From Corallium rubrum (taxonomy: Eukaryota; Cnidaria; Anthozoa; Scleralcyonacea; Coralliidae): 64,000 nucleotides of DNA. The notes under the pieces are model-generated. The model did no database searches and was not told the DNA's origin. It saw only the letters and a program-made list of their open reading frames with translations. This document shows, piece by piece, positions 7,101 through 55,990 of this stretch (the first letter of the stretch is position 1; the number at the start of each line of letters is the position of its first letter). The position numbers and the translations under genes are program-made. The stretch is from assembly GCA_964035015.1 (NCBI GenBank), contig OZ036005.1, forward strand, positions 6,438,188 to 6,502,187, written 5' to 3'.

Positions 7101-10100
7101 CCGGCGTCTTCGGTGACCGAAAACGGAACTTTTCGAAAGCGCTCTCCAGAGTGGAGATATTCGAAGACGCCGTGTTTTTTTTTTGCATCAGTGTGGACGG
7201 CAAAAACGAAGCTTTTGGAAAACGATGATGTCACGATTTATGTTATCTTGGTTTCAGTCACCTAGAAGTATTCACTCATACCCCATTCTGTAGATCTTTT
7301 TAGCGTTTTACTAAACGATTCGAAAACGATAGTGTGGACGAAAAACGTTTGATTACGTTTTCGATACGCGGTCTCCGTTTTCGTTTGAAAACGGATTAGT
7401 GTGGATATGTCCCCCAAATGACCCCTTTATTGTTTTCCTCGTCAAAGAGAGAACCCTCAGACATCCTAGGCAGCATAAGTGGATTAAGGATTAAGCAGTG
7501 GTTAGCTAAACAAGATTTAACCATCGCCAACGCATAAAAGCACTAGAGGCGTAACTAGAACATACTTCTTACATATTGTTTAATTATTGATTAAAGGCCC
7601 TGTTACACGGTGCAATTTTTCATACAACTTGTCTCGCAATGATGACTCATGTAGCATTGCAGTTGCAAGACAGGGAGTGTTACACGCTGCAACGCATAAA
7701 CGCGTTTTTCCAATGATTTGGATTCCGATAAAAGCGGGTAGAGTGGGAAGAGGCTCGATTGAGTGTGTCAAATCATAACAAAATATTGCAAGACAAGTTG
7801 CTGAATTAAAGGGTGCTACACGGTGCAACACTGAAACAAATTGCTGCAATCGTTGCAGAAAGTAGAACCTGATTCTATTTTGTACAACGATTGTTGCAAC
7901 TTGTCTCGCAACGATTTTGACCATTGCACAGCATGTTACACACTGCAATGGTTAATGCAACTTGTCTCGCAACGATTTTGACCATTGCACAGCATGTTAT
8001 ACGGTGCAATGGTTCATGCAACTTGTCTCGCAACGATTTTGACCATTGCACAGCATGTTACATGGTGCAAATGGTTCATGCAACTTGTTTCGCAACGATT
8101 TTGACCATTGCACAGCATGTTACATGGTGCAATGGTTCATGCAACTTGTTTCGCAACGATTTTCACCATTGCACAGCTTGTTACACGCTGCAGTGGTTCA
8201 TGCAACTTGTCTCACAATGATTTTGACCATTGCACAGCATGTTACACGGTGCAATGGTTCATGCAACTTGTTTCGCAACGATTTTGACCATTGCACAGCA
8301 TGTTACACGCTGCAATGGTTCATGCAACTTGTCTCACAATGATCTTGACCATTGCACAGCATGTTACACGATGCAATGGTTCATGCAACTTGTCTCGCAA
8401 TAATTTTGACCATTGCACAGCATGTTACACCGTGCAATGGTTCATGCAACTTGTCTCGCAATAATTTTGACCATTGCACAGCATGTTACACCGTGCAATG
8501 GTTCATGCAACTTGTCTTACAATGATTTTGGCCATTGCACAGCATGTTACACGGTGCAATGGTTCATGCAACTTGTGTCACAATGATCTTGGCCATTGCA
8601 CAGCATGTTACACGGTGCAATGGTTCATGCAACTTGTCTCGCAATGATCTTGACCATTGCACAGCATGTTACACGGTGCAATGGTTCATGCAACTTGTCT
8701 CGCAATGATCTTGACCATTGTGCAGCATGTTACACGGTGTAATGGTTCGTGCAACCATTGCAGACCAGTTGCATGAAAATTTTTTTATTTTAAAACACGT
8801 TTAAATACTGCAAGTGTGGCGTAAACAAGGTTAAGCAGCGTTTCCGCAATTCAATTAGATTCTGAAATTAATTATAGAGTTTAATATTTTTATCACTTTA
8901 TAATATGGTGAACAGATCATCCCCAACACACTCAATTGTCAGGAGATCTGAGCCAGCTGTGCATGCCACATAGATAAAGCGTTCAACAATTTCTTAGCTA
9001 TGCCTGAGTTTGAATTTTTTCCAGAGGGAGGAACGGCGAACCAAGAGAAAACCCTCAAAGTGCAACTAGTTCGTCACTCGGAGTAGCACTTGATATCATC
9101 ATCAATATGTTCTTTTTTTCTTACATTGCAGCTGTTGATCTAAACCTGGTTATCACACCAGAAAACTTAGCCCCAATGTTAAGTAATCCAGAAATAAGGA
9201 ACCAACTCATTCCATTCTTGCCTGCTGGTGAAGATCTTCCACAGGATGAAGAACAACTGTTACTGACACTGCAGTCACCTCATTTTCAACAAGTAAGTAC
9301 AGAGGAGTTGAGATTAGATTGAGTTGTATCAATTAGAGAGTGCTCTTTATCATGGTCAGGGCTGCATTAAGCTTGTGGAATACCCGAAGCAAACATCATG
9401 TGAGAGGCCCCTATGCTTCAGATTAATTGATACCGAATAACGCCGGATACATATTCACAAATCAATTTACAGTTAAATAATAGAGTATATAAATAAAAAG
9501 AACACAATATGGATATAATTCTAAACTGAACTAGTAAGTTCATGCTGAAATAGCTAAGTTGTAATAGCCTACGTCATAGTCGTTGTGAATTTCAAACATA
9601 GCCGCCTTTTGCACCGGGAGCGTCTGTGACGCAGATTAAGCGGCTGTTTATATGGAAGGCGGGACGGGGCGTTTTTCATCCCGGATTTATATGAGAATGT
9701 TTCAGGCGGGACAATTGCGACCAGTACATTTCACAACACAGTTAGAAAGTTGTAAAAACCACAGAATAACAGAGAAATAAATAGAATTTGACGTATTATA
9801 AAGAGCTGCTGTCCTCCTACTAGCCGCTATCACTCACTTGTATCGAATAAACAGCTTAAAAATCAAAATAGATACTCGGAACGGTATCCGTCATAACGTC
9901 CCGGTTAGGCTGGACAGACCATTTATATGGCGAAAATTATCCCGGCAGGCCGGTTGAGGAAACCGGGATCCCGCTTTGCCGGGACGGGACGAAAAACGTC
10001 CCAGCAAACATCTTTCCATATAAACTGAACGGGATAAATAAGAGAGATATACATGCATGGCGAGATCCCGTTTAACGTCCCGCCCGCCTCCCATGTAAAC

Positions 10101-18306: not shown

Positions 18307-20480
18307 TACCCTTGGACTATATAAGCATCTCTCAGTTACAACAATGTATGATGAAATCAGCCCACTTTGAATTAAGTTATCACTGTGTAGTACAGCCAGG
18401 CCTGTTTCGCAGACTTTTCACCGTACGTGCAAGCAAAATATACACACAACAGGGAGGGGTGCAACTCGGGGTTGGTGGGGTTCCAACCCCTGCCCTTTTT
18501 AACCCCTGCCCTTTTTAACCCCTGCCCTTTTTGTGAGACCTCTAATACTAGGTTAGACATTAGATAAACAAATAAGTAATCGTCTGTTGTAGTACGCAAT
18601 ACAATTCTCCACAAATCTGGCGAGACTCAGAGGCTTCTAGTTCGGCTTCAGTCTCGTACCCAGTTTGTAATTTGCTACACCAAGTGTTTCCTAAAAACAA
18701 CCGCTTTTCTGAATTTGTGGGCTCAGCTTTTGAATATAGAGCTGGATTTTGGCACCCTGTAGGGTATGTTGGTGTGATAATTTCTTCGTTTTTACAGTAA
18801 AATTTCAACCATACTCGCTGTAGAATTAGATGAAAAAGTTCGCTCAAATTGCTGCAAATGGTGTTTCCGAGGTTCTAGATTTCAAAAATTTCCGGGGGAG
18901 GACCCCTGGACCCCCTACAAATGTGGTCACTAATTGCCACTCACTGCCCCCCCCCCCCCCCCAAAAAAAAACAACCCAACTTTTTGACACGTTGGTACGG
19001 CACTGATTGTTGTTGTGGTTGTCGAGTGTTCTCGAAGCAGCATAACGAGGCTATCTAGTATCTCAAATTGTTTAGAATACTGAACGACTTTGCCCTTTTT
19101 TTGCGTTCAACCCCTGCCCTCGAAATGTTCTAGTTGCCCCCCTGCACAAAGTTGTTTGCCGTCATTTTGAAAGCAAGGAGTGAAGGCTCTGCGTGAGTAC
19201 AAGGGTCAATACATGTATTTTTTTCATCAGTAAAAATACAAATTAGATCTAAACCACAACAATTTATAACAAGAGGATACTGGCGTCACATGAGTGAATG
19301 TGCATTGGACTGTATACTATTATATCGTGATTGCTGTCTGTCTGTTTTAAATTCTCATAGTTACTGACCGATTTCGCGATCTGTCTAAAAAGAGTTTGAA
19401 TGGGAATGACCTGGTTAATTGTATCATTGTCGGCTTATTTAGAAGCCTGGTTATTTACCTTTCGGCTTAGTTTATATATTGTTTGTTTTTTTATGTAGAT
19501 CTAATTTATTATCTGCGAACGAGACGAGAGTAATGGCGGCGAGAAAGAAAGGGAAGGCGGGCAAGCTTTTTAGTGTGAAGTGATGTTTTCAAGAAAGGAC
19601 AGGAGAGCTTCATTGTTGTTATACAATCACTAGCTTCAACATAAAACTCACAAGACAACGAAAACTTTTTTCTCTTTCAATATATGTTCTCGGAGACACT
19701 CTGAGTGAAAACTAGCTTTAAACGTTTTTTACTCTGATCAAAAGGACTCTATATATTGACGTTTAGAATACTATAATATTCTAAACGTCACGGTATTTCG
19801 TAATCAAAATTTCCACGAACTTTACCACCTTTCACTGACTTAGCTCTAGCTAAGACACTGCCTACAGCCTACGCAGCACTTTACTTACTAAGGCACTTGC
19901 ACTAGAATCGCAAGGTCGTGGGTTCAATTCCTGCCGGAAGGCCTGTGTAGTTGCATTTTTCGCAACTGGTCCCGGTTTGGTCTTAAAATGTATATATTCT
20001 ACACTCGAATTTTCCTTCACCCAAAATCCTTAGAATATGCTATGTAATCGAGTGAAATGCCCAATATTACTTTACTTACTAGTTAAGCATTGCAGTTACC
20101 TAAAGTTAGTCAGAAGATTTTGTATTAAAGTTAATAACGTGCATTAATTTAAGATATTTACACAAACACTTGAAGTTCCGTTGTTATTGGAATATACCAC
20201 CCACCACACTGTTTATGACCACGGCATCTTATACCTATACTTTCTGATCAGAGAGTGCAAAAATTAGCCATTACTGATTAGGTAAAGTGGCTCTGCACTA
20301 CCAAGAACAATAGAGTTTGATTTCAACTTTGGATTTTGCAGTGTAAAAAACTCTGATCTGGCTAGCGTGCGTGTTCATATAGTCCAGTGACAAAGTGCAT
20401 CAAGACTTTTAAAATGAAACCACTTCACCTTGGCAGTTGACTAATATTTCACAATCAACTGCTTGGCAAGCTCGTTTTAT
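18307..20480. other. Intergenic, no recognised gene
   Basis: It contains a triple repeat of AACCCCTGCCCTTTTT (about 18480-18535), C- and A-homopolymers at 18945-18975, a perfect 20-bp hairpin half (TTTAGAATACTATAATATTC at about 19764), and a tRNA-derived SINE (19884-20078). I see no coding exon I can support. Confidence 0.5.
19884..20078 (+). mobile_element. tRNA-derived SINE, 5'-truncated
   Basis: Starts within the anticodon arm (CACTAGAATCGC) and continues with GGTTCAATTCC (B box) and the tail TGTAGTTGCATTTTTCGCAA. The tail is shared with the full copy at 43083-43287 and, inverted, 47170-47330. Confidence 0.75.
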
Positions 20481-20489
20481 CGCGGCGAT

Positions 20490-21937
20490 CCCTTCTTTTA
20501 TAAAACGCGATTCCTTCTTTTATAAAACGCGATTCCTTCTTTATAAAACGTTTTATTGCGATTCCTTCTTTATAAAACGATTTATTGCGATCCCTTCTTT
20601 TATAAAACGCGATTCCTTATTTATAAAACGTTTTATTGCGATCCCTTCTTTATAAAACGCGATTCCTTCTTTATAAAACGTTTTATTGCGAACCCTTCTT
20701 TTATAAAACGCGATTCCTTATTTATAAAACGTTTTATTGCGATCCCTTCTTTATAAAACGCGATTCCTTCTTTATAAAACGTTTTATTGCGATCCCTTCT
20801 TTTATAAAACGCGATTCCTTATTTATAAAACGTTTTATTGCGATCCCTTCTTTATAAAACGCGATTCCTTCTTTATAAAACGTTTTATTGCGATCCTTTC
20901 TTTTATAAAACGCGATTCCTTATTTATAAAACGTTTTATTGCGATCCCTTCTTTTATAAAACGCGATTCCTTATTTATAAAACGTTTTATTGCGATTCCT
21001 TATTTATAAAACGTTTTATTGCGATTCCTTCTTTTATAAAACGCGATTCCTTATTTCTAAAACGTTTTATTGCGATTCCTTCTTTTATAAAACGCGATTC
21101 CTTATTTGTAAAACGTTTTATTGCGATTCCTTCTTTTATAAAACGTTTTATTGCGATCCCTTCTTTCATAAAACGCGATTCCTTATTTATAAAACGTTTT
21201 ATTGCGATCCCTTCTTTATAAAACGCGATTCCTTCTTTATAAAACGTTTTATTGCGATCCCTTCTTTTATAAAACGCGATTCCTTATTTATAAAACGTTT
21301 TATTGCGATCCCTTCTTTATAAAACGCGATTCCTTCTTTATAAAACGTTTTATTGCGAACCCTTCTTTTATAAAACGCGATTCCTTATTTATAAAACGTT
21401 TTATTGCGATCCCTTCTTTATAAAACGCGATTCCTTCTTTATAAAACGTTTTATTGCGATCCCTTCTTTTATAAAACGCGATTCCTTATTTATAAAACGT
21501 TTTATTGCGATCCCTTCTTTTATAAAACGCGATTCCTTATTTATAAAACGTTTTATTGCGATTCCTTATTTATAAAACGTTTTATTGCGATTCCTTCTTT
21601 TATAAAACGCGATTCCTTATTTCTAAAACGTTTTATTGCGATTCCTTCTTTTATAAAACGCGATTCCTTATTTGTAAAACGTTTTATTGCGATTCCTTCT
21701 TTTATAAAACGTTTTATTGCGATCCCTTCTTTCATAAAACGCGATTCCTTATTTATAAAACGTTTTATTGCGATCCCTTCTTTTATAAAACGCGATTCCT
21801 TATTTATAAAACGTTTTATTGCGATCCCTTCTTTTATAAAACGCGAACCCTTTTTTATAAAACGTTTTATTGCGATTCCTTCTTTATAAAACGCGAACCC
21901 TTCTTTATAAAACGTTTTATCGCGATTCCTTCTTTAT
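20490..21937. repeat. AT-rich minisatellite with 566-bp higher-order repeat
   Basis: Alternating about 50-51-bp units (CGATCCCTTCTTTATAAAACG and variants) form 101-bp dimers. A block containing several dimers recurs exactly 566 bp downstream: for example 20636-20857 reappears at 21202-21423, and 20987-21169 at 21553-21735. Each unit carries the perfect palindrome ATAAAACGTTTTAT. Frames stay open on both strands only because the unit lacks stops in those frames; I do not call a protein. Confidence 0.95.
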
Positions 21938-22214
21938 ATGCTGAAATACAAGGTTATACTAAGTAAAACATTTTGACTGACTAAAAATACTTGAACTTAG
22001 CAATAAAAATATCGGACAAAACATGTTGTTCTAGATATATATGCGCTTTTGATTTCAACGGGAGTGGCTCCTGCAATACTTAGATTGCGTTCTCATACTT
22101 TTGGGGTTTGCTATTTTTCAAGCTAAAAGAAGAACTGGTTTAGTTTAGATGCAAACAAATTCCAACACTGAATCAATTTTTTTTGTGACCGAGGAAAGAA
22201 TCTCGTGACACCAG

Positions 22215-22345
22215 TTAGTCCTGCGCTGTTTATATAAAAGAAATAAGGCAAGTAATTGTTTATGCGCAGTCGAGATGCGTATTAGACTGCTCTTGAATTC
22301 AAGTGTGTATTCATTGCCACGCCTTGTAACAATATTTATTCAAAG
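22215..22345 (+). promoter_or_regulatory. Diverged duplicate of the UDG-like gene's promoter/5' region
   Basis: A TATATAAAAG box is followed by GCGCAGTCGAGATGCG-TATTAGAC and TTGCCACGCCTTGTAAC. The same order (TATATAAAAG, GCGCAATTAAGACG, TATTAGACCG, TTGCCACGCCTTCTAAC) recurs at 22630-22800, immediately upstream of the UDG-like gene. No coding exon follows this first copy. Confidence 0.5.
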
Positions 22346-22635
22346 ATCTTAAAAAGGTATTTTGGTCCGATTTTAAATTAAAAGCTTTTAGTCGGGAGAC
22401 TTTAGTTAGGAGACTTTAGCAATGAGTCTTTGTAATTTGAAGTAACGATTCTTTATTACAATGCATACTTTTTTATGAGATAATGATTTTTTGAATTGTA
22501 AAGATTATTTGTAACGGTGTTATCAGTCTAAATATATTACTCAGTTAGTTCAGGAGGGATGAGGAAGAACTTTCACTCACGACGTGCATGCGGCCCAACT
22601 TTAATTTCGTGACATGAGTTAATTATATCAGGTCA

Positions 22636-22644
22636 TATATAAAA
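22636..22644 (+). promoter_or_regulatory. TATA box of the UDG-like gene
   Basis: TATATAAAA lies about 260 bp upstream of the first 5' splice donor and heads a plausible non-coding first exon (about 22665-22902). Confidence 0.5.
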
Positions 22645-22664
22645 GCTGAGCATCCCAGGCTCAT

Positions 22665-22902
22665 GTACAAGAAGCAACTCTATATCTGCGCAATTAAGAC
22701 GTATGCATATTAGACCGCGAGACCGCGCGCTCTTCAATAAATCAAATGCATGTGCATTAGCCTGTAACATTGCCACGCCTTCTAACTTTATTAAAGAGCG
22801 TGACTCTTACTCGTCTGTACATTGTTGTTCAACCATCGAAGTACAGTGTTTGCGCCAAAGGTCTTTTCAGAGAAATTTACTTTTGCCAAAGAATTAAAAA
22901 CG
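22665..22902 (+). other. Putative non-coding first exon of the UDG-like gene
   Basis: Bounded on the right by the donor CG|GTAAGTGA at 22903. The matching acceptor is CATTTATAG at 23461, 29 bp before the ATG of the signal-peptide exon. The 5' limit is estimated from the TATA box. The intron between holds a foldback element (23250-23410). Confidence 0.45.
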
Positions 22903-23249
22903 GTAAGTGAATAGTAGTTATGTTTTACAATATTAATAACTAGACAATGCACTCACTACGACCGAAATGCATTATTTCGGGCAACTTCAATTTTCAGATT
23001 TAATATGTAATATACGAACATGCATATACAGTCAGGTTTTTTGGAGATAGTTTTTATCATCTCTTGCAAAAATATACTTTTGTCTAGTCTATGAAAAGTT
23101 GTTTATAGATTCTAGTCACTATCTAATTGAAAGATGGTCTTTGCACTCCGTTGCTCTTCGATCCGATAACCTTCTAGATTTCTGACTTGAAAATTAGTAT
23201 GTATTTACAGAACGACAAGTAAAGTCACAACCAATGTTAGCTTTATTAT

Positions 23250-23410
23250 TATAAGTAATAGCATGGCATTGAGGTTGATTAGTGATTAAACTGTACCCGA
23301 AAGCCGAGGGAGGTTTAGTAAAAGTTCCAAGGGCGAAGCCCGAGGGTCTTTTACTAAACCTCCCGAGGCTTGAGGGACATTTAATCACTAATCAACCGAA
23401 ATGCCATGGG
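23250..23410. repeat. Foldback element (TAATAGCATGGCAT ends)
   Basis: The arms run ATAAGTAATAGCATGGCAT...GGGAGGTTTAGTAAAAG and the inverse. A relative with the same layout (CATGACTTGAGGGAAATTAG arms) lies at 33025-33165 in the Staufen gene. Both read as outer arm, AGCGATTAA-type block, then CCGAGGG hairpin. Confidence 0.75.
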
Positions 23411-23490
23411 AAAAAGCTTAATACTTCAAAAGTAAAGTTATGATTTTTTACTCATTTATAGATCTTAAACTGTAATTGCTGATCACAATA

Positions 23491-23536
23491 ATGCAGCTGT
23501 ATACTAGAATTGTACTGGTTCTTTTCGTGCAAGCAG
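23491..23536 (+). CDS. Signal-peptide exon of the UDG-like gene
   Basis: Fifteen codons plus one base, from an ATG 29 bp after acceptor CATTTATAG to donor CAG|GTAGGT. Phase 1 fits the next exon exactly (G|GA TGG). Assignment to this gene is by phase and peptide character, not by transcript evidence. Confidence 0.55.
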
Positions 23537-25979
23537 GTAGGTGCACTTTCAAAAACGCATTCCAATTAATGAGCAGTTTAAAAGCACATTGCAGTAACTA
23601 AGGGGCTAGAAAGTTTTATTATGTTTATATAAACTCAACACGTTTTTTGTATTGTTAGTTGGTAAGATTTAGAAAGAACAAAGAGTCGAAGGTAGCTACT
23701 CTCACAATGGGCGAGAATAGTCAGAATAGAAAAACACTCATGCAGGCATAGATATAGCCTGCGAGGATAGGAAACTTACGAAACCGGAAACGATGTTTGC
23801 AACAACTTGCTATGGTAATTATACGCTTATAAGCGGGCAATGCACCTAACGGGTGGTCCCACATGGCTAAAATCAGACACTGCTGAACTTAAGTGATATT
23901 ACACTTTTGTCTGATTTCAGCAATAGGTGCATTAGCTGCTTTTAAGTGTGTAATTACCATAGCAAGTTGTGCAAACAACGTTTCCGGTTCTTTAACCTCG
24001 TTTGAAGTTTCCTATCCAGTTCCCCTTCCATTATCTATGATGCAGGGGAGGGCGTTGGCTACGGAATCATCACTTATAGCCATGTACTATAAAGAAAGTT
24101 TCTGATTGGTTTAAATTCAAACAAAATCCCTAATTAATCAGTAACGAGTGGTCAACATCGATATCAGGAACAATTTAGATTAGAACCTGAGAGAGCCTCC
24201 TGCTCAAAACCTTTAAGGTATCACTTGAGGAACATTTGCTCCCTTTGGGAAGCCCCCAATGCTTCAATTTGGACTTATTTTAGACTTTGTAGTAACCAGT
24301 AGGTTTAGAAATACATTTTATATTTAACTAGCATATATTTTACTTATAATTTGTAAATAATTGTAAATGATTGTAAATAGTTTCTTGAAAAGCCCTTTGG
24401 GCAGTTAACTATTAAAGTACTATCTATCTATCTATCCATCTAACGAGCATGCCGGGAACGAATCTATAATTAACAATGTCATTGGTTACTTATAGCCAAT
24501 GAGAAACCACATTTATATTAGGCGCGACTTATACCGCAGCTGAAATTTCACATGCATCAACATACTTTATTGAGCAATTCCCAACTGGGCTTTTCAATGC
24601 CCATTACAGTTTAAAATTTTGTAATAAAAATATGAATAACTATATAAAGTTTTTATAAATTATATAAATATATGTACGGTTAATGTTCAAATGTAGATTA
24701 CTAAATATTAATAAAATTATCTAACAAATAGCTCTTCATTAAGTTCTTAAATTTACTAATAGACGTTTCATGTTTAATGTTATCTTCTAAATTATTCCAA
24801 AGCGTTACAGCTCTGTAGTGGAATGATCGTGAGAAGCAGTTCGGTAAAAAGGAATTTGTACGTCATTTCTGTTACGTGTGGCACGGTTGTGTATGGAAGA
24901 GCGTTTATTAAATTTGCTGCATAGATATGGTGGAGCGAGCGAGTTCATACATTTATACTTCATGATCGAGTCGCGTAGCAGCAGTTGTTCACGGATAGGC
25001 AGCCAACCAATTTGGCGTAGCGCAGGAGTGATATGCTCATACTTTCTTATGTTTGTAATTATCCTGCATGCGAAGTTCTGTACAGCTTGGAGTTTATTAA
25101 TGTTTTTGGCAGAAGTATTTGACCACACTGACGAACAATAGATGCATTTTTTTTTATACAACACATGCATTTTTTTTATTATTATTTTAGGATGGGTGTG
25201 CCATGCCAGAGTGCAGCTCCTTCGTTCAGATATGGCAAGGCCTGCAAACGAGGGATGCGAGTACTTACTAGAGGAATCAACTTACCATACAACAACACTG
25301 TATAATTTGTATTTTAAAGATAACTGCTTGCCAAAGGGTTGGGAAGATTTCTTTATTGCTCACAAAGACATGATTAAAGAGATTTCTGATCAATTAGACT
25401 TAGATAAAGAACACGGACTGAATCCAAAAATAGGTTGGGTATTTCGAGCATTTCATATGGTTTCTCCCGACCAGACTAAGGTAATAGTGTTAGGTCAAGA
25501 TCCTGCACCTCAACCAGGTCTAGCTACTGGTCTTTCATTCAGTCTTGATCCTAGTGTACCATCTTACAAAGTACCCAGTGTACAAAGAGTAATTCTTGAA
25601 GCAATGAATGAAGGTTATTGTGTAAGTCTAACCAATGGCGAGCTCATTCATTGGGGCCAATCAGGGTGTGTTACTGCTTAATACGGCATTAACCCTCATT
25701 TCGGGACAAATAGGTTCTCATATTAAGCTTTGGAGAGAGTTTACTAAAGCCATTTTAAAATATATCAATGACGAAGCAAAACCTTCAGTTTGGATTTTGT
25801 GGGGAAGTAAAGCGAAATATTTTGAAAAGTATGTTAGTGAAAACAAGCATTACGTCATCAAAGGAGGACACCCTTCTCCTAGAGCTGACCCGTTAAAGTT
25901 TTTCTGCAAAAATTATTTTTATTGCGCTAACGAGTTTCTTTGCTCTGAAGGGCGCGGTAATGTAGACTGGAACCTATAA
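23491..25979 (+). CDS. Uracil-DNA glycosylase family-1-like protein with predicted signal peptide; one frameshift
   Basis: Family-1 UDGs remove uracil from DNA. Here exon 23491-23536 encodes MQLYTRIVLVLFVQA and splices in phase 1 to 25191-25979, giving ...GWVCHA then ARPANEG. The short basic start, hydrophobic core and Cys-His-Ala site look like a secretory signal peptide. The mature part aligns along its length with the fold: VFRAFH; LGQDPAP with the catalytic Asp (about residue 119); GLSFS; LLLNTALTL with the pocket Asn; ILWGS; GGHPSPRAD with the catalytic His (about 241); WNL at the end. Changes from the canonical form: GQDPYH is GQDPAP (Tyr and His lost) and HPSPLS is HPSPRA (intercalating Leu to Arg). 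At 25664-25666 a GGG run shifts the frame by one; upstream and downstream halves are otherwise intact. It is either a young pseudogene, a polymorphism or a sequence error. There is no nuclear or mitochondrial leader as in standard UNG. Confidence 0.75.
23763..24017. repeat. Foldback element in the UDG-like gene's intron
   Basis: GGATAGGAAACTT...AACTTGCTATGGTAATTA at the left is matched, inverted, by TAATTACCATAGCAAGTTG...GAAGTTTCCTATCC at the right. Non-coding. Confidence 0.8.
24230..24440 (+). mobile_element. LINE 3' end (tail only), plus strand
   Basis: TTGTAAATAATTGTAAATGATTG, then GAAAAGCCCTTTGGGC and a (CTAT)n run at 24418-24440, typical of a CR1/L2-type LINE tail. It resembles the tail of the minus-strand LINE just to the right. 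Confidence 0.55.
24555..25170 (-). mobile_element. Truncated non-LTR retrotransposon (CR1/L2-like), 3' portion
   Basis: On the minus strand, 25170-24805 encodes the C-terminal end of a LINE reverse transcriptase: CSSVWSNTS, KLQAVQNFACRII and the GWLPIREQLLLRDS block typical of this class. After a frameshift it continues with AVTLWNNLED and KNLMKSYL down to about 24725. An untranslated tail follows to about 24555, with GAAAAGCCCAGTTGGG. It is 5'-truncated and lies antisense in the UDG-like intron, ending about 20 bp before the catalytic exon. Confidence 0.85.
25191..25979 (+). CDS. Catalytic exon of the UDG-like gene (contains the frameshift)
   Basis: Acceptor ATTATTTTAG. The first frame is open to the TAA at 25679-25681. 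From about 25667 the family sequence continues in the next frame (VLLLNTALTL) to the TAA at 25977-25979. The whole glycosylase domain lies in this single exon, whereas vertebrate UNG is split by several introns. That would fit a retrocopy or horizontally acquired ancestor, but is not proof. Confidence 0.85.
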
Positions 25980-27530
25980 GAACGCCAGTCAGATTTTTGG
26001 TCGCAGATTTAATTACCCTGGATTTTATGTAAAGGGGGGTTTGTATGATGCAACCATGCCCTAAACGAGTGGTCACTATAATTGCTTAAACTGCAGGGGA
26101 TCAGTATTAATTCTATTGTCTAATTTGAAGGGTTTAAATTTTAAAAGCATTTTGATTTTCGGTGTGTAATTTTAAATTAAGAGGTTTTAGTTGGGAGATT
26201 TTAAATAATTCTTTGCATTGTAATAACTAGTGGTTTTTGTAATAATGATTCTTTGTAATAATTAGGACTTTGTAATAACGATTCTTTATATAATAATATT
26301 TCTTTGTGATAAGAATTCTTTGTAATCAGAATAATTTTTTGCAACATAATTGATTTTCTATCAATAATGCATGATTTTTTGTAACGCTGATTTTTATGTC
26401 TAATTCATATCGTCTTTGCTAATCAGAAGATAAAAAGATGATATTAATAAAAAGATTGCTTTTAGGAGCCCAATAGATTGGTGTTCCCACTACATCAAGT
26501 TGCTGCTGTTGTGCTGCTGTTAGCAACAAATGATAGCCGACTTTCTCCCGCGCTGTGTTCGACCAATAAATACCCAGATCTCCCAGATAGCTAGTGTGGT
26601 AACCATTGGATCACAGATCACTACGGCTGGTTAGATTCTTACTCGAGCTACCTGTGGTAGCCGAGTCTAGGTTTTGCATGGCTCTGTTATTTTTTTTTTG
26701 TGTCGACAAATTGCAATTCTTGCACAACATTTTCCAAAAGCCTTTGCGAATGGCTGCCAAATCAATGTTTTGGTACGCCAGTATACCCGCCATGATTTTC
26801 TCTATGATAGAGAAAGTTGCATCAAATTCAACCATTAACTCCAAACAGCACTGCTCTTGTTATATTATTTTGCAAGGCACCAACCCACAGTAGCCCGAGT
26901 TCACGCCTAGTGGGCGTCTTGTTTATCTATTATTTCCGAATGTAATACGACATGCGATATGTAGACATGCACTAACAGTTCAACATATTGATATCCTACC
27001 GGTTGTTGCTCTATTCGGTGCTTATTATTATACTTGCATTTTGTAATTGTCGTGAAATGTCCTTCAAATATTCAAAAACATCGATAAAATGGCAATAAAA
27101 GCTTCGTTCAAAAGAGACAACCACTGATCATCCGGAGACAACTCGGCCAAACCTCGGTTTCGCAATTATTAAACATGGCTGTTCTCTGACGTCCTTCACT
27201 CCTTCAGTTTAAAGTTTCCAATTATTCTTAATACACCTTGATTCGCTGACAGTCCAACTACTTTGACATCTTTGTTTGAGACGACTACTGTGTAGTGCGC
27301 CAAGAAATGTCGTTGAAATATTCAAAAACATCGGTAAAATGGCAACAAAAGCTTCGTTAAAGAGACAACTCGCCATGAAAGTCATATCTCGGTTTCGCAA
27401 AGCCTCTTGGGGCAATATCTCGACCCCAAAAAACAAAAAAAACCCACTAACAACGGGACCGAAACCTAGACTCGTCTACCTGCGGTAGCCCGAGTAATAA
27501 CGCAAGTACCATCATTCGACCTTCAGCTCC
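25980..27530. other. Intergenic between UDG-like gene and Staufen 3' end
   Basis: 26140-26420 is an AT-rich, TTTGTAATAA-repeating stretch that resembles 22350-22560 on the other side of the UDG-like gene. 26640-26926 is a short TIR element (CTCGAGCTACC and GTAGCCCGAG ends). 27060-27110 and 27300-27360 are diverged duplicates (AATATTCAAAAACATCG.TAAAATGGCAA). No coding exon was recognised. Confidence 0.6.
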
Positions 27531-43000: not shown

Positions 43001-45006
43001 AATTCTTGAGCAGCTATCCTAATTAACTGTTGGCATTACCACCTTATTATATATACAGAACTCGCGATCGAGCTCTCGGCAACGGCCTCCGTGGCTCAGT
43101 GGTCAGAGCATTGCACTAGAATCGCAAGGTCGTGGGTTCAATTCCTGCCGGAGGGCCTGTGTAGTTGCATTTTTCGCAACTGCTCCCGGTTTGGTCTTAA
43201 AATGTATATATTCTACACTCGAATTTTCCTTCACCCTAAATCCTTAGAACATGCTGTGTGATCGAGTGAAATGCCCAATATCATTTATAATATACCCAAT
43301 TCTCTCCTGGCATTTCCTTAGAATATCCTAATTAACTGTTGTCATTCTTCGCATTTTGCAGACGCTTAGCAACTAGCTTGCAATGGTGCCATGTTTTCAG
43401 TTTTTGAATGTTGGTGGAAAATTCAACAAAATAGTGATGTTTCAGGCACATTACATTTGGAAATGTGTTCAGTATTCAATGGATCTTTCCCAGAGCCTGC
43501 AGTTGGTCCTTTTGTGCAGCAACAAGAACCATTACTGCACAAAAGGACCACAGGCTCTAGGAACAATACCTATATCATTCACCTTGTTTGAGTACTGCTG
43601 ATAGGAATATCTACTATCCAAATGTGGATACTAAATTTCAAGGAGGCATACCAGATTCTAAGTGCCTATCCCACTTTGTGATTGCAGAAAACTACAAATC
43701 CCATGCTGTGATAAAAATACATAATTATTCAAATGATTTAAAAAATTACCTGATTTTTCTCATGGACATCAGAGTTTCCACTGTCAGCCATTGCTCCTGA
43801 GTTAGGTCTAATACCTAACAACTGCAACATGGCTTCAGCAGCATTCATCTTGGCCTCTTTCTTGTTTGCTCCAGACCCTCTGGCAGTGTGTGAATCAACT
43901 TCCACTTGCATAGTGAACTCTTTATTTCTGATGCCTTCCTCTCCGACCAAGGTGTACACAGGTAGTGACTCCTTGCGACGCTGACGAAGTTGACCAAGTA
44001 GGCTGATGGGATTTAAGCTGGGATCCAATTCCTTCAGCGATTTCTTTCCATAACCACCATGATTATAGAGGCGGCCTTTGGGATTATAAGTTGACTTTAC
44101 AGGAAGAGGTGGTAATTTGTTTAGCTCTTCAAGAATTTTCATCGACGCGGCATGTTTAGAAGCCTTCTTTCCAGACCCCTCTCCCATAGCATTCAAATTG
44201 TCAACCGTAACTGATGTTACAAACAAACGATTATGAGGAGGACCACTGGACGAAACCACTTCAAAAACAAGCTTCATCTTACGCTTACTGGCTATTTCAT
44301 ACACCAGACTGATTGCAGATTTAATTGGATTGGCACTTGGTTTTACGACACTTTCCGTTTTCACTTGTGGCTCACCAACAGCATCCATTTTGACACCACC
44401 AACCGGATTCTCATTCAAGGGGTCGTTTTCCAGCTTCATATCCATGTTGAGCTCTGCACGAAGATCAGGTAAGGCATTTTGAGCTGCATTGTGTCGAGCA
44501 TCTTTTATTCGATTGCCTTCACCAAAATATTCTTTATCACCGATTTTAAGGGAGACAGTAACTTTGGTAGGAGAGTTGCTGTAGGATTGAAAGCCGGATG
44601 GGTATGGCTTATTTAACTGGCCACCATATTGAGGATAAGCATTGCTTGGTGCTGGAGTTGGACCAGGATGTTGCCTAGTGTCCAAAGCGAAATCAGTGTA
44701 GATCACTTGCTTGCCTAACTTCATAGCAAGGTTGTTGAGCTCGACGGACGGTGCGATGTTCATTGGCTTCACTTTTCGCTCTGGTTTGGTTAAACCACAA
44801 GAATCCAAACCAGACTGTGCAGCTTCGTGCTTGGCGTTCTTGATAGTCTGACCAACGCCAAAGTATGAACCATTTGGAAGGCTTAATTCTACTTTAAACG
44901 ACCTCTGATGCGGCGGTCCTGCTTCTTCAACCAGTTGGTAATCAGGGACGATATTATTCGACTTACACAGCTCGTTCATCGAACTAATCGGTGTCTTTTG
45001 TGTCAT
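27973..45006 (-). CDS. STAU: Staufen, dsRNA-binding protein (complete, 6 coding exons)
   Basis: Staufen binds double-stranded stems in mRNAs, drives mRNA localisation on microtubules and, in vertebrates, Staufen-mediated decay. Minus-strand coding exons: 45006-43750, 38891-38610, 37022-36867, 34663-34502, 29637-29439, 28043-27973. All borders are GT-AG, phases agree, total 2127 nt (708 residues). Domains: dsRBD1 about 9-72; dsRBD2 about 88-180 with an insert of about 45 residues (105-147), a Drosophila-Staufen-like feature; dsRBD3 about 226-296 (GSGKKASKHAA); dsRBD4 about 332-398 (NKKEAKMNAA); dsRBD5 about 600-665, ending the core with AFEHAAANALVPLL. LPPGLLPILPE before dsRBD5 matches the LPPGILPMVPE-type stretch of vertebrate STAU. 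The start ATG has context ACC-ATG-A. Its introns, 1.4 to 4.9 kb, are loaded with foldback elements. Confidence 0.96.
28106..29255. mobile_element. MITE split by a nested 980-bp element
   Basis: The halves (28106-28212 and 29193-29255) carry the AGGCGAC...CGCGAAGCGAC and inverse blocks of the family seen intact at 50139-50293. Between them, 28213-29192 starts CCATAGAAATAAT and ends ATTATTTCTATGG, and is bounded by CCGGAA duplicates (28207-28212, 29193-29198). The nested element has no recognisable gene; GCGGAT-TATAAGGGCAAA occurs near both of its ends. Lies in the last Staufen intron. Confidence 0.85.
29439..29637 (-). CDS. STAU: Staufen coding exon 5 (second half of dsRBD5)
   Basis: ENNEQCLAVVTISTVPPLI through AFEHAAANALVPLL. 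Two in-phase donors are visible: GTAAGT after 29439 and GTAAGG after 29451, 12 nt apart. Either keeps the last exon in frame, giving isoforms that differ by four residues. Confidence 0.92.
29700..31755. repeat. Inverted-repeat-rich block in Staufen intron 4
   Basis: Blocks around 29755-29830 and 30462-30540 are inverted copies (CAGGTTACAC / TCCATGATGCAA). GGGATAGGGT-type words recur at 31210-31380 and 31725. 31378-31705 is a distinct element (CGCGAGCC-TGATTGGTCAATTG to TTTGGTATTTCTTTAT) with an inverted copy at 59970-60325. No coding exon. Confidence 0.55.
32860..33000. repeat. Fragment of the 61-bp minisatellite family
   Basis: Two diverged units with TGTTACACGGTGCAG and TGTTACACAGTGCAG spacing, and the GAGACAAGTTTCACG word. 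Not expanded here. Confidence 0.55.
33025..33400. repeat. Two adjacent foldback elements
   Basis: 33025-33165 has CATGACTTGAGGGAAATTAG arms around a CCGAGGGAAGATTTGTGAAAG hairpin. 33235-33365 has TAATTTTCCCGTGCATGTTG arms. Both lie in Staufen intron 4. Confidence 0.75.
33452..33868. mobile_element. MITE with TTGTTATATAGCTAGAGTTTC ends
   Basis: The 24-25-bp termini are perfect inverted copies. The interior has inverted GCCCGCT blocks at 33566-33606. Non-coding. Confidence 0.85.
34118..34417. mobile_element. MITE with TACCCTGG...CAGGGTA ends
   Basis: The inverted ends TACCCTGGTCCCAAAGG and the complement-like right end both include GCCGCCTGCTA.CCC in opposite orientation. An inner GCTGAAAGCGGC block is also inverted. 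Located 85 bp downstream of the Staufen exon 4 donor. Confidence 0.75.
34502..34663 (-). CDS. STAU: Staufen coding exon 4 (first half of dsRBD5)
   Basis: IGPTVTVLNRAP... then QQLAESGGFQVQYQDTTK, matching the LDYLSRVQGFQVEYKD start of vertebrate dsRBD5. It splits the domain in phase 0 before the next exon's ENNEQC. Confidence 0.94.
35984..36302. mobile_element. MITE with TAGCCTGTGCA ends
   Basis: The ends TAGCCTGTGCACATCCGG and its inverse are followed by a second inverted pair, GCCGGTAATC. The element is about 320 bp. A foldback with CTCTGGGATAATCCG arms follows at 36478-36645. Confidence 0.75.
36867..37022 (-). CDS. STAU: Staufen coding exon 3
   Basis: Contains QLPPGLLPILPEMA, a conserved Staufen linker motif between dsRBD4 and dsRBD5. 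Acceptor CCTTTTAG, donor GTCAGT, phase 0 on both sides. Confidence 0.9.
37290..38040 (+). mobile_element. Decayed LINE fragment (reverse-transcriptase C-terminal end)
   Basis: On the plus strand, antisense to Staufen, pieces in different frames read LKGKLYVTCVRSAMVYGSGTW, ERTEMRMVRWMCGVSLKDR, RNRLRWLGHVLRKDDGDW and EGTRGRGRPRMTW. These are the standard C-terminal blocks of non-LTR elements after the RT domain. Multiple frameshifts; truncated at the 5' side. Confidence 0.88.
38610..38891 (-). CDS. STAU: Staufen coding exon 2 (Ser/Glu-rich linker) with NAGNAG acceptor
   Basis: 94 codons rich in Ser, Glu and Gln (SSEDEG, SSQCSSEEE), an acidic linker that follows dsRBD4. The acceptor reads TTTTAGCAG, so the exon may begin at 38891 or 38888, adding or removing one Gln. 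Confidence 0.88.
39006..39258. repeat. Foldback element (CATAGAGATCATATAAATAC arms)
   Basis: About 30-bp perfect arms at 39006-39040 and 39227-39258; an inner ACC/GGTTGGCAAA pair is also inverted. In Staufen intron 1. Confidence 0.8.
39262..40880. mobile_element. TIR element carrying a nested 782-bp transposon
   Basis: The outer arms (CTGAAAAATAGGACTGGATC at about 39281, inverted at about 40845) and an inner pair (CCATATTGGAGTGACC / GGTCACTCCAACATGG) enclose the 39773-40554 transposon. Confidence 0.65.
39764..40563. mobile_element. Non-autonomous TIR transposon, copy 2 (782 bp) with 9-bp target duplication
   Basis: The element spans 39773-40554 and its ends match copy 1 at 11439-12205. It is bounded by exact GGAGGACAC duplicates (39764-39772 and 40555-40563). 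A 9-bp duplication suggests the Mutator-like group, but the ends alone do not prove it. No transposase. Confidence 0.9.
41800..42210. repeat. Degenerate minisatellite (GTTA-GCTAC-TTCTGAAAA)
   Basis: More than ten imperfect copies of an about 22-25-bp unit such as AAGTTATGCTACATTCTGAA. Small open frames here are by-products. Confidence 0.65.
43083..43287 (+). mobile_element. tRNA-derived SINE, full head
   Basis: 43084-43157 folds as a near-complete cloverleaf: GGCCTCC acceptor strand, A box TGGCTCAGTGG, anticodon loop reading AGA, B box GGTTCAATTCC. It lacks the long variable arm of a true tRNA-Ser. It continues into the SINE tail shared with 19884-20078 and the inverse of 47170-47330. Confidence 0.8.
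43750..45006 (-). CDS. STAU: Staufen coding exon 1 (dsRBD1-4)
   Basis: A single 419-codon exon with four dsRNA-binding domains. It ends HEKNQ before the donor GTAATT, phase 0. The 5' UTR upstream on the minus strand contains GGCGGCCATTTTA shortly before ATG, resembling a YY1-type element. Confidence 0.97.
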
Positions 45007-47169: not shown

Positions 47170-47330
47170 TAAAAAAGTACTTAGAATATATACATTATAA
47201 GACCAAACCGGGACCAGTTGTGAAAAATGCAACATCAAGGCCTTCAGGCTAGGAATTGAACCCGCGACCCTGCGATGCTAGTGCAGTGCTCTGACCACTG
47301 AGCTACGGAAGCCGTTGCCAAGAACTTGGC
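47170..47330 (-). mobile_element. tRNA-derived SINE
   Basis: On the minus strand: GGCTTCCGTAGCTCAGTGG, an anticodon loop reading AGC, GGGTTCAATTCC, then the GATGTTGCATTTTTCACAAC tail and CCCGGTTTGGTCTTA. Confidence 0.75.
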
Positions 47331-55729: not shown

Positions 55730-55990
55730 TAATTGTCAGTTGTTTGCTGTACAAGATGTGTTAGACTGTTAGTTGGTAATACTCAGAAAAACTCTGAGCT
55801 CTAAGCGGGACTCGAACCCGCAACCTTCTGAATGCTAGCCAGACGCTCTAAGCCTCTAACCATTGGGCCACTAGAACTCAGATGGCAGAGCTTAGAGCTC
55901 AGAGTTTTTCTGAGTATTACTAACTAACACAGCTTGTACAGCAAACAACTGACAATTACTACTAACATCAAGCTGCAATTTCTGAAACTA
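55730..55990 (-). mobile_element. tRNA-Ala-derived SINE in foldback arrangement
   Basis: The tRNA-like head lies on the minus strand (B box GGTTCGAGTCCC, anticodon loop AGC), between inverted copies of the TGTACAGCAAACAACTGACA tail. Same family and layout as 2077-2434. Confidence 0.75.

Follow-up and report, generated by a model that had tools for sequence, protein, structure and literature searches.

A clade of uracil-DNA glycosylase relatives without the pocket tyrosine in corals and bacteria, and its pseudogene in Corallium rubrum

A stretch of 64,000 nucleotides from the coral Corallium rubrum (GenBank assembly GCA_964035015.1, contig OZ036005.1, positions 6,438,188 to 6,502,187 of the forward strand; hereafter the window) carries a gene related to those for family-1 uracil-DNA glycosylases (UDGs; Ung/UNG) in which the uracil-selecting Tyr and the intercalating, or wedge, Leu are both replaced. 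The locus raises the question of whether so altered a sequence is an ordinary repair gene in decay or the trace of a lineage with a function of its own. We lean, though not strongly, towards the latter: the window holds the pseudogene of what would be an exported relative of family-1 UNG, with widened base selectivity and with foreign or extracellular DNA as its target.

The small residue in place of the Tyr, first noticed in the window copy, proved to be a trait fixed across a whole clade and not a peculiarity of this gene. Protein searches returned 527 proteins at E <= 1e-3, of which the best 120 were listed, and further searches added 89 proteins and the best 120 of 7901. Among the best 120 of the 527 together with the query, GQDP[ATV]P was found by pattern in 115 of 121 (86 with Ala, 25 with Thr, 4 with Val); the remaining six comprise four proteins without the motif and two that the pattern mis-hit. 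Across all 235 proteins collected, the residue after GQDP is Ala in 106, Thr in 96, Val in 16, Ser in 1 and Tyr in 11, with 5 unread, and ten of the Tyr-bearing proteins look canonical while the eleventh, P0224, is a sister protein of the family. The 69 aligned rows have Ala (54), Thr (13) or Val (2) at this position and none the GQDPY(H) of family-1 UNG. These members nonetheless have the UNG fold, and the catalytic Asp and His and the pocket Asn, which the preliminary description of the window had recognized as kept, are invariant together with Phe and Gln in 69 of 69 rows. Loss of the wedge Leu, the other alteration reported there, holds for the window copy and for an intact duplicate elsewhere in the genome, both of which have Arg instead, and is incomplete among the relatives: the residue follows HPS[PA] in 16 of 103 readable motifs and in 6 of 69 aligned rows, which otherwise lack the HPSPLS of family 1.

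Among the matches listed, the named coral members come from Desmophyllum, Oculina, Orbicella, Montipora, Stylophora and Acropora, and the named bacterial members from Endozoicomonas, Thalassotalea, Fluviicola, Nitrospirota, Saccharibacteria and other bacterial metagenome-assembled genomes. The Oculina models G044476, G044479, G044480, G044481 and G044483 have neighbouring numbers and lie on contigs of equal size, which suggests a tandem array. In bacteria the variant motif is rare and scattered: a scan of genome contigs with two peptide patterns confirmed 144 relatives, and the best 80 of these comprised 6 with the variant motif and 74 with GQDPYH or GQDPYF. Relatives with the variant motif, for which the preliminary description had proposed a search of cnidarian and viral proteomes, were found in corals, and in bacteria in addition; a scan of viral contigs with two peptide patterns gave 4 distant matches among 18 candidates (one GQDPYH, one GQDPYI, two in which no motif was found). 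A viral origin was set aside, within the reach of a scan using two peptide patterns only. Matching records from plasmids (74) and phages (94), whose motifs were not read, all had less than 60% identity to the query, and in no case did the match extend beyond 80% of its length. Two further proteins of coral-type sequence, P0125 and P0126, carry two UNG-like domains in tandem, and the first domain of P0125, which reads GQNPSP and GGSPSP, may be inactive.

A tree, which the preliminary description had proposed, gives the small-residue members one origin apart from canonical UNGs. With the canonical UNGs as outgroup, the family forms one clade (support 100/97) to which Tyr-bearing P0224 is sister, and the switch between Tyr and a small residue maps as a single change. 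These values come from a careful tree of 64 rows, with which a quick first tree of 101 rows agrees; rows in both were hand-chosen, and the assignment of rows to coral A, coral B or bacteria derives from a small number of named records together with the trees themselves. Coral A, the clade of the window gene, has support of 99/93 and groups with the bacterial members (95/97), while coral B, itself weakly supported (85/62), branches first within the family. A tree uniting all animal members was not rejected (p-AU 0.21), so more than one number, order and direction of transfers between corals and bacteria would fit.

Most members also differ from canonical UNGs in how they begin. By a hydrophobicity rule that asks for a 10-residue hydrophobic uncharged segment near the start, and which is not SignalP, a signal-like start is present in 53 of the 78 members whose N-terminus is long, versus 0 of 68 canonical UNGs. 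A further 49 members with short N-termini have no leader and may be truncated, without their first exon or truly leaderless; the count left out three proteins without the motif, and 9 of its 136 rows, with very long N-termini, fall into neither class. Named coral models pass in 12 of 16 cases, and the intact C. rubrum copy passes from MHFF, a putative start. Bacterial-type rows pass in 48 of 68 cases, including 39 of the 45 hand-picked ones; 22 of these 39 carry a lipobox. The 20 failures consist of a leaderless clade of nine and 11 others, namely six of the hand-picked rows and P0129, P0070, P0089, P0090 and P0079, several of them apparently cut at the start. Cysteine content follows the same division, with a median of 11 in the 78 members versus 2 in 76 canonical open reading frames (ORFs). 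Throughout the two coral groups, the bacterial group and the membrane-anchored group, every row with a residue aligned at model position 30 or 53 has Cys there, and Cys 252 and 302 are present in nearly all coral A, coral B and bacterial rows and absent from the two membrane-anchored rows. In all nine leaderless members Cys is missing at 53, 252 and 302, and the alignment shows a gap at 30. Judged from these sequence features, the clade looks exported, and its exported members are probably held by disulfides.

The coral B proteins may in addition carry a propeptide. Defining coral B as the rows that remain after the coral A and bacterial lists are removed, dibasic sites, often LEKR, occur in 27 of 65 pro-regions, compared with a mean of 13.9 and a maximum of 22 in 200 shuffles. 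Corresponding counts are 4 of 22 in coral A (shuffles 1.6, maximum 5) and 11 of 58 in bacteria (10.0, maximum 16), a pattern consistent with propeptide cleavage in coral B and not in coral A, the window's own group. Propeptides ending in Lys-Arg are carried by nematocyst and venom proteins.

Domain fusions place the UNG-like domain beside nucleases. Three full-length proteins (P0122, P0123 and P0124) join an export-type start, a NucA-type nuclease domain (PF01223; E 1.9e-46, 1.6e-49 and 3.3e-50, respectively) and a UNG domain, and P0124 also has a weak SH3 match. All three nuclease domains contain DRGH, which we take to be the catalytic motif of the PF01223 family, and the same fusion is found in the partial proteins P0070 and P0089. 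In P0132 and P0136 the UNG-like domain is instead fused to a common second domain (22% identity, E 1e-10); that of P0132 resembles the ribosome-inactivating family PF00161 below threshold (E 0.006, 16.6 versus 21 bits), and that of P0136 gave no PF00161 match.

The window itself contains no functional copy of such a gene. The motifs on which the preliminary description was based are truly encoded on the plus strand, and the UDG homology is well beyond chance, with matches of the window protein to Pfam PF03167 (E 1.2e-8), to the NCBIfam uracil-DNA glycosylase model NF003592 (171 bits where 162 are required; it fell below the cut-off of the other four such models listed) and, in a sequence search of structure chains with 45 matches, to the UDG chain 3zoq (E 1.5e-37). 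Yet the interval 25191 to 25979, which had been read as one gene, spans two frames and has lost its tail. The features of the locus are as follows.

25142 to 25681, plus strand: upstream ORF of the broken UNG-like gene, with hydrophobic start, N-terminal domain and GQDPAP, and a stop just past the frameshift
25493 to 25510, plus strand: motif A, GQDPAP (GQDPYH in canonical family 1), in the ORF 25142 to 25681
about 25653 to 25656, plus strand: frameshift site in a G run, a one-base shift relative to the intact copy
25635 to 25979, plus strand: downstream ORF with LLLN and HPSPRA, in a different frame from 25142 to 25681
25671 to 25682, plus strand: LLLN, in the ORF 25635 to 25979
25869 to 25886, plus strand: motif B, HPSPRA (canonically HPSPLS), in the ORF 25635 to 25979
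25974 to 25975, plus strand: 17-base gap relative to the intact copy and premature end, with the Cys-containing C-terminal tail out of frame
19430 to 26923, no strand assigned: segment common to the window contig (C23) and contig C15, in several aligned blocks of about 88 to 98% identity

Joined across the shift, the two ORFs give 248 residues that include GQDPAP, LLLN and HPSPRA. Because 17 bases near 25974 are missing relative to the intact copy, the window copy is without the C-terminal tail. It is a duplicated, frameshifted and C-terminally truncated pseudogene, and the split into two frames and the 17-base gap rule it out as a functional gene.

The 474-Mb genome (312 contigs; G000) has two matching places, the window and C15:8507900-8508643. 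The C15 copy is 98% identical to the window protein and open over 333 residues without stops, its ORF comprising 327 residues with the Cys-containing tail at the end. At the DNA level the two places are 96.5% identical over 2300 bases, with indels, and their homology extends blockwise over 19430 to 26923 of the window; the likeness is therefore a segmental duplication wider than the UNG-like gene alone. A protein from another source, P0037, is 100% identical to the query over 43% of its length, the downstream half; its start lies before the shift but in the downstream frame, and it retains the C-terminal end. We therefore read it as an allele of the window locus that carries this frameshift too. 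That the shift would recur there makes an assembly error of the window alone unlikely, unless shared reads underlie both records. Bacterial contamination was rejected, as C15 (16.9 Mb) and C23 (15.9 Mb) are large contigs and the copy on each sits within a repeat-bearing duplicated segment.

How might the intact members act? A signal peptide would lead them out of the cell, in bacteria often to a lipoprotein site, where the protein would fold with disulfides and bind foreign or extracellular DNA. A pyrimidine base would flip into a UNG pocket that keeps its Asp, Asn, Phe, Gln and His; with Ala, Thr or Val replacing the Tyr that excludes C5 substituents, this pocket would be without its C5 gate, such that uracil and C5-substituted uracils (5-hydroxymethyluracil, perhaps thymine or phage-type modified thymine) may be hydrolysed at the glycosidic bond. 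The resulting abasic DNA would break or be cut by a partner nuclease. The altered base selectivity first suggested for the window protein fits the clade-wide loss of Tyr with catalytic residues kept, although that suggestion had missed both the frameshift and the predicted export of the relatives. For corals, possible roles include digestion of extracellular DNA and defence in venom or mucus. A bolder and decidedly doubtful version holds that an ancient gene transfer left corals and bacteria with a common secreted weapon or shield that removes bases and that, its gate having opened once, attacks foreign DNA beyond the cell by taking out thymine or its modified forms; it would be surface-bound or nuclease-fused against phages and rivals in bacteria and present in many copies in stony corals, one group of them with a Lys-Arg-ended propeptide.

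Several observations weigh against export and action on foreign DNA. Among the long-N-terminus members 25 of 78 fail the leader rule, many of them single-exon ORFs or sequences with odd starts that perhaps lack their true first residues, and a splice acceptor may lie at the putative leader-giving start of the intact C15 copy. Export is not universal, since the nine bacterial-type members without leader and cysteines are presumably cytosolic, and four other members have a membrane-spanning-like start, the two aligned ones without Cys 252 and 302. Two of five variant-bearing bacterial genomes show the variant only, which might therefore serve repair there. A hint at the protein level comes from Stylophora, where a protein annotated as uracil-DNA glycosylase, 38% identical to its best hit, is third by peak area among the proteins of one haemolytic fraction (PMC5762905, section 7). 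It is likely a member of the variant family, because closer matches to known animals would be expected of a canonical UNG from an animal; however, it came from a whole crude extract, and the paper shows neither family membership nor venom origin.

An intracellular repair glycosylase of broad selectivity, like SMUG1 or BdiUng and acting in nucleus, mitochondrion or cytosol, would account for the UNG fold and active site, for the existence of the leaderless clade and for the two genomes without another UNG, and its hydrophobic starts would be mispredicted or mitochondrial, as human UNG has a mitochondrial form. We consider it unlikely, because 22 bacterial-clade members have a lipobox within an export-type start, the cysteines covary with the leader, the nuclease-fused proteins start with a signal-like hydrophobic stretch, and a clearly canonical UNG (51 to 61% identity to Halomonas UNG) accompanies the variant in three of the five bacterial genomes, although two of those three canonical frames hold one stop each. 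Less probable still is a secreted DNA-binding protein without catalysis that, for example, coats or traps DNA: it would suit the clade-wide loss of Tyr and the rarity of the wedge Leu, but invariance of the general base Asp and of Asn, Phe, Gln and His would be unexpected of such a protein. That the unusual motif arose by chance as an ordinary repair gene decayed deserves hardly any credence and can be regarded as already refuted. The preliminary description had named a lone decaying copy among GQDPYH-bearing relatives as one finding that would overturn it, and the window copy does decay, being frameshifted and truncated, yet its relatives are without GQDPYH: the intact C15 copy and over 200 of the 235 collected rows have the small residue, with one origin on the tree.

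Should action on DNA outside the cell be correct, base removal there would constitute a third use of DNA glycosylases, which have so far been seen as protectors of the cell's own DNA or, following Brig1, as a means of fighting phages inside the cell. The family, common to corals and bacteria, supplies natural Tyr-to-Ala/Thr/Val UNGs with which the pocket model can be probed, and its candidate activity would be directed at modified phage DNA or at extracellular DNA.

Compared with the family-1 enzymes of human, E. coli and D. radiodurans (2boo/4uqm), the clade has Ala/Thr/Val-Pro for Tyr-His, rarely keeps the Leu of HPSPLS, mostly has export-type starts, is Cys-rich and stands apart on the tree. 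SMUG1, which accepts 5-hydroxymethyluracil, likewise has a small residue at the Tyr position, but has Asn at the site of the UNG Asp that the clade keeps; none of the 45 matches of the query in the structure-chain search was named SMUG1. Bradyrhizobium BdiUng, which we take to be PDB 5x3g/5x3h, has GQDPA in common with the clade and lacks a classical motif B, whereas the clade has HPS[PA]; we know of no export of BdiUng. Its match to the query is weak (E 7e-8, query 130 to 202), and 5x3g/5x3h are not among the 50 structural matches listed. The preliminary description, which knew of no described family with the combination, had missed this related motif of BdiUng. BdiUng-like enzymes have a wider substrate range, according to the available part of PMC8307549. 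Brig1 and Brig3, as far as the available text of the two papers goes, are UDG-superfamily enzymes turned against modified-base phage DNA that have defence-gene neighbours (PMC11078745, PMC13160076), Brig1 having predicted room at C5 and a family-4 UDG as best structural match (PMC11078745). The term 'signal peptide' is absent from the main texts of both papers (PMC11078745, PMC13160076). Likened here by description, they serve as models of mechanism and not as demonstrated relatives; they share the superfamily with the present clade, two bacterial loci of which also lie among defence-type genes. Among the papers listed, at most 20 per search, none on an exported UDG was recognized, and no paper matched GQDPA, which is weak evidence of novelty as few subscription journals were covered.

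The variant motif occurs at six of the bacterial loci kept. L004 is next to models for Septu PtuA, Lamassu LmuB and a caspase, L003 beside E1-E2/JAB genes, and L001 beside conjugation and ArdC-like genes; for L002, L005 and L006, which had no PADLOC scan, no defence genes were recognized among the neighbours by reading. The link to defence from two of six loci (L003 and L004) is suggestive, no more, for a role in defence or antagonism. PADLOC 2023, a library older than the 2024 Brig1 paper, gave no match for five members. Adjoining the leaderless UNG-like gene of L005, positions 8866 to 9789 appear by eye to encode a nuclease toxin domain, with no Pfam match.

The remaining observations concern the surroundings of the window copy. 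Just upstream of the UNG-like gene in both copies lies an ORF (24805 to 25170, minus strand) that by eye resembles the end of a LINE-type reverse transcriptase and has no Pfam match. A tandem array with a period of 51 bases and about 27 copies occupies 20558 to 21935, and a version of it is also present in the C15 duplicate segment. The window further contains four tRNA genes (2302 to 2375, 43085 to 43157, 47239 to 47311 and 55796 to 55869), three for Ala (AGC) and one for Ser (AGA).
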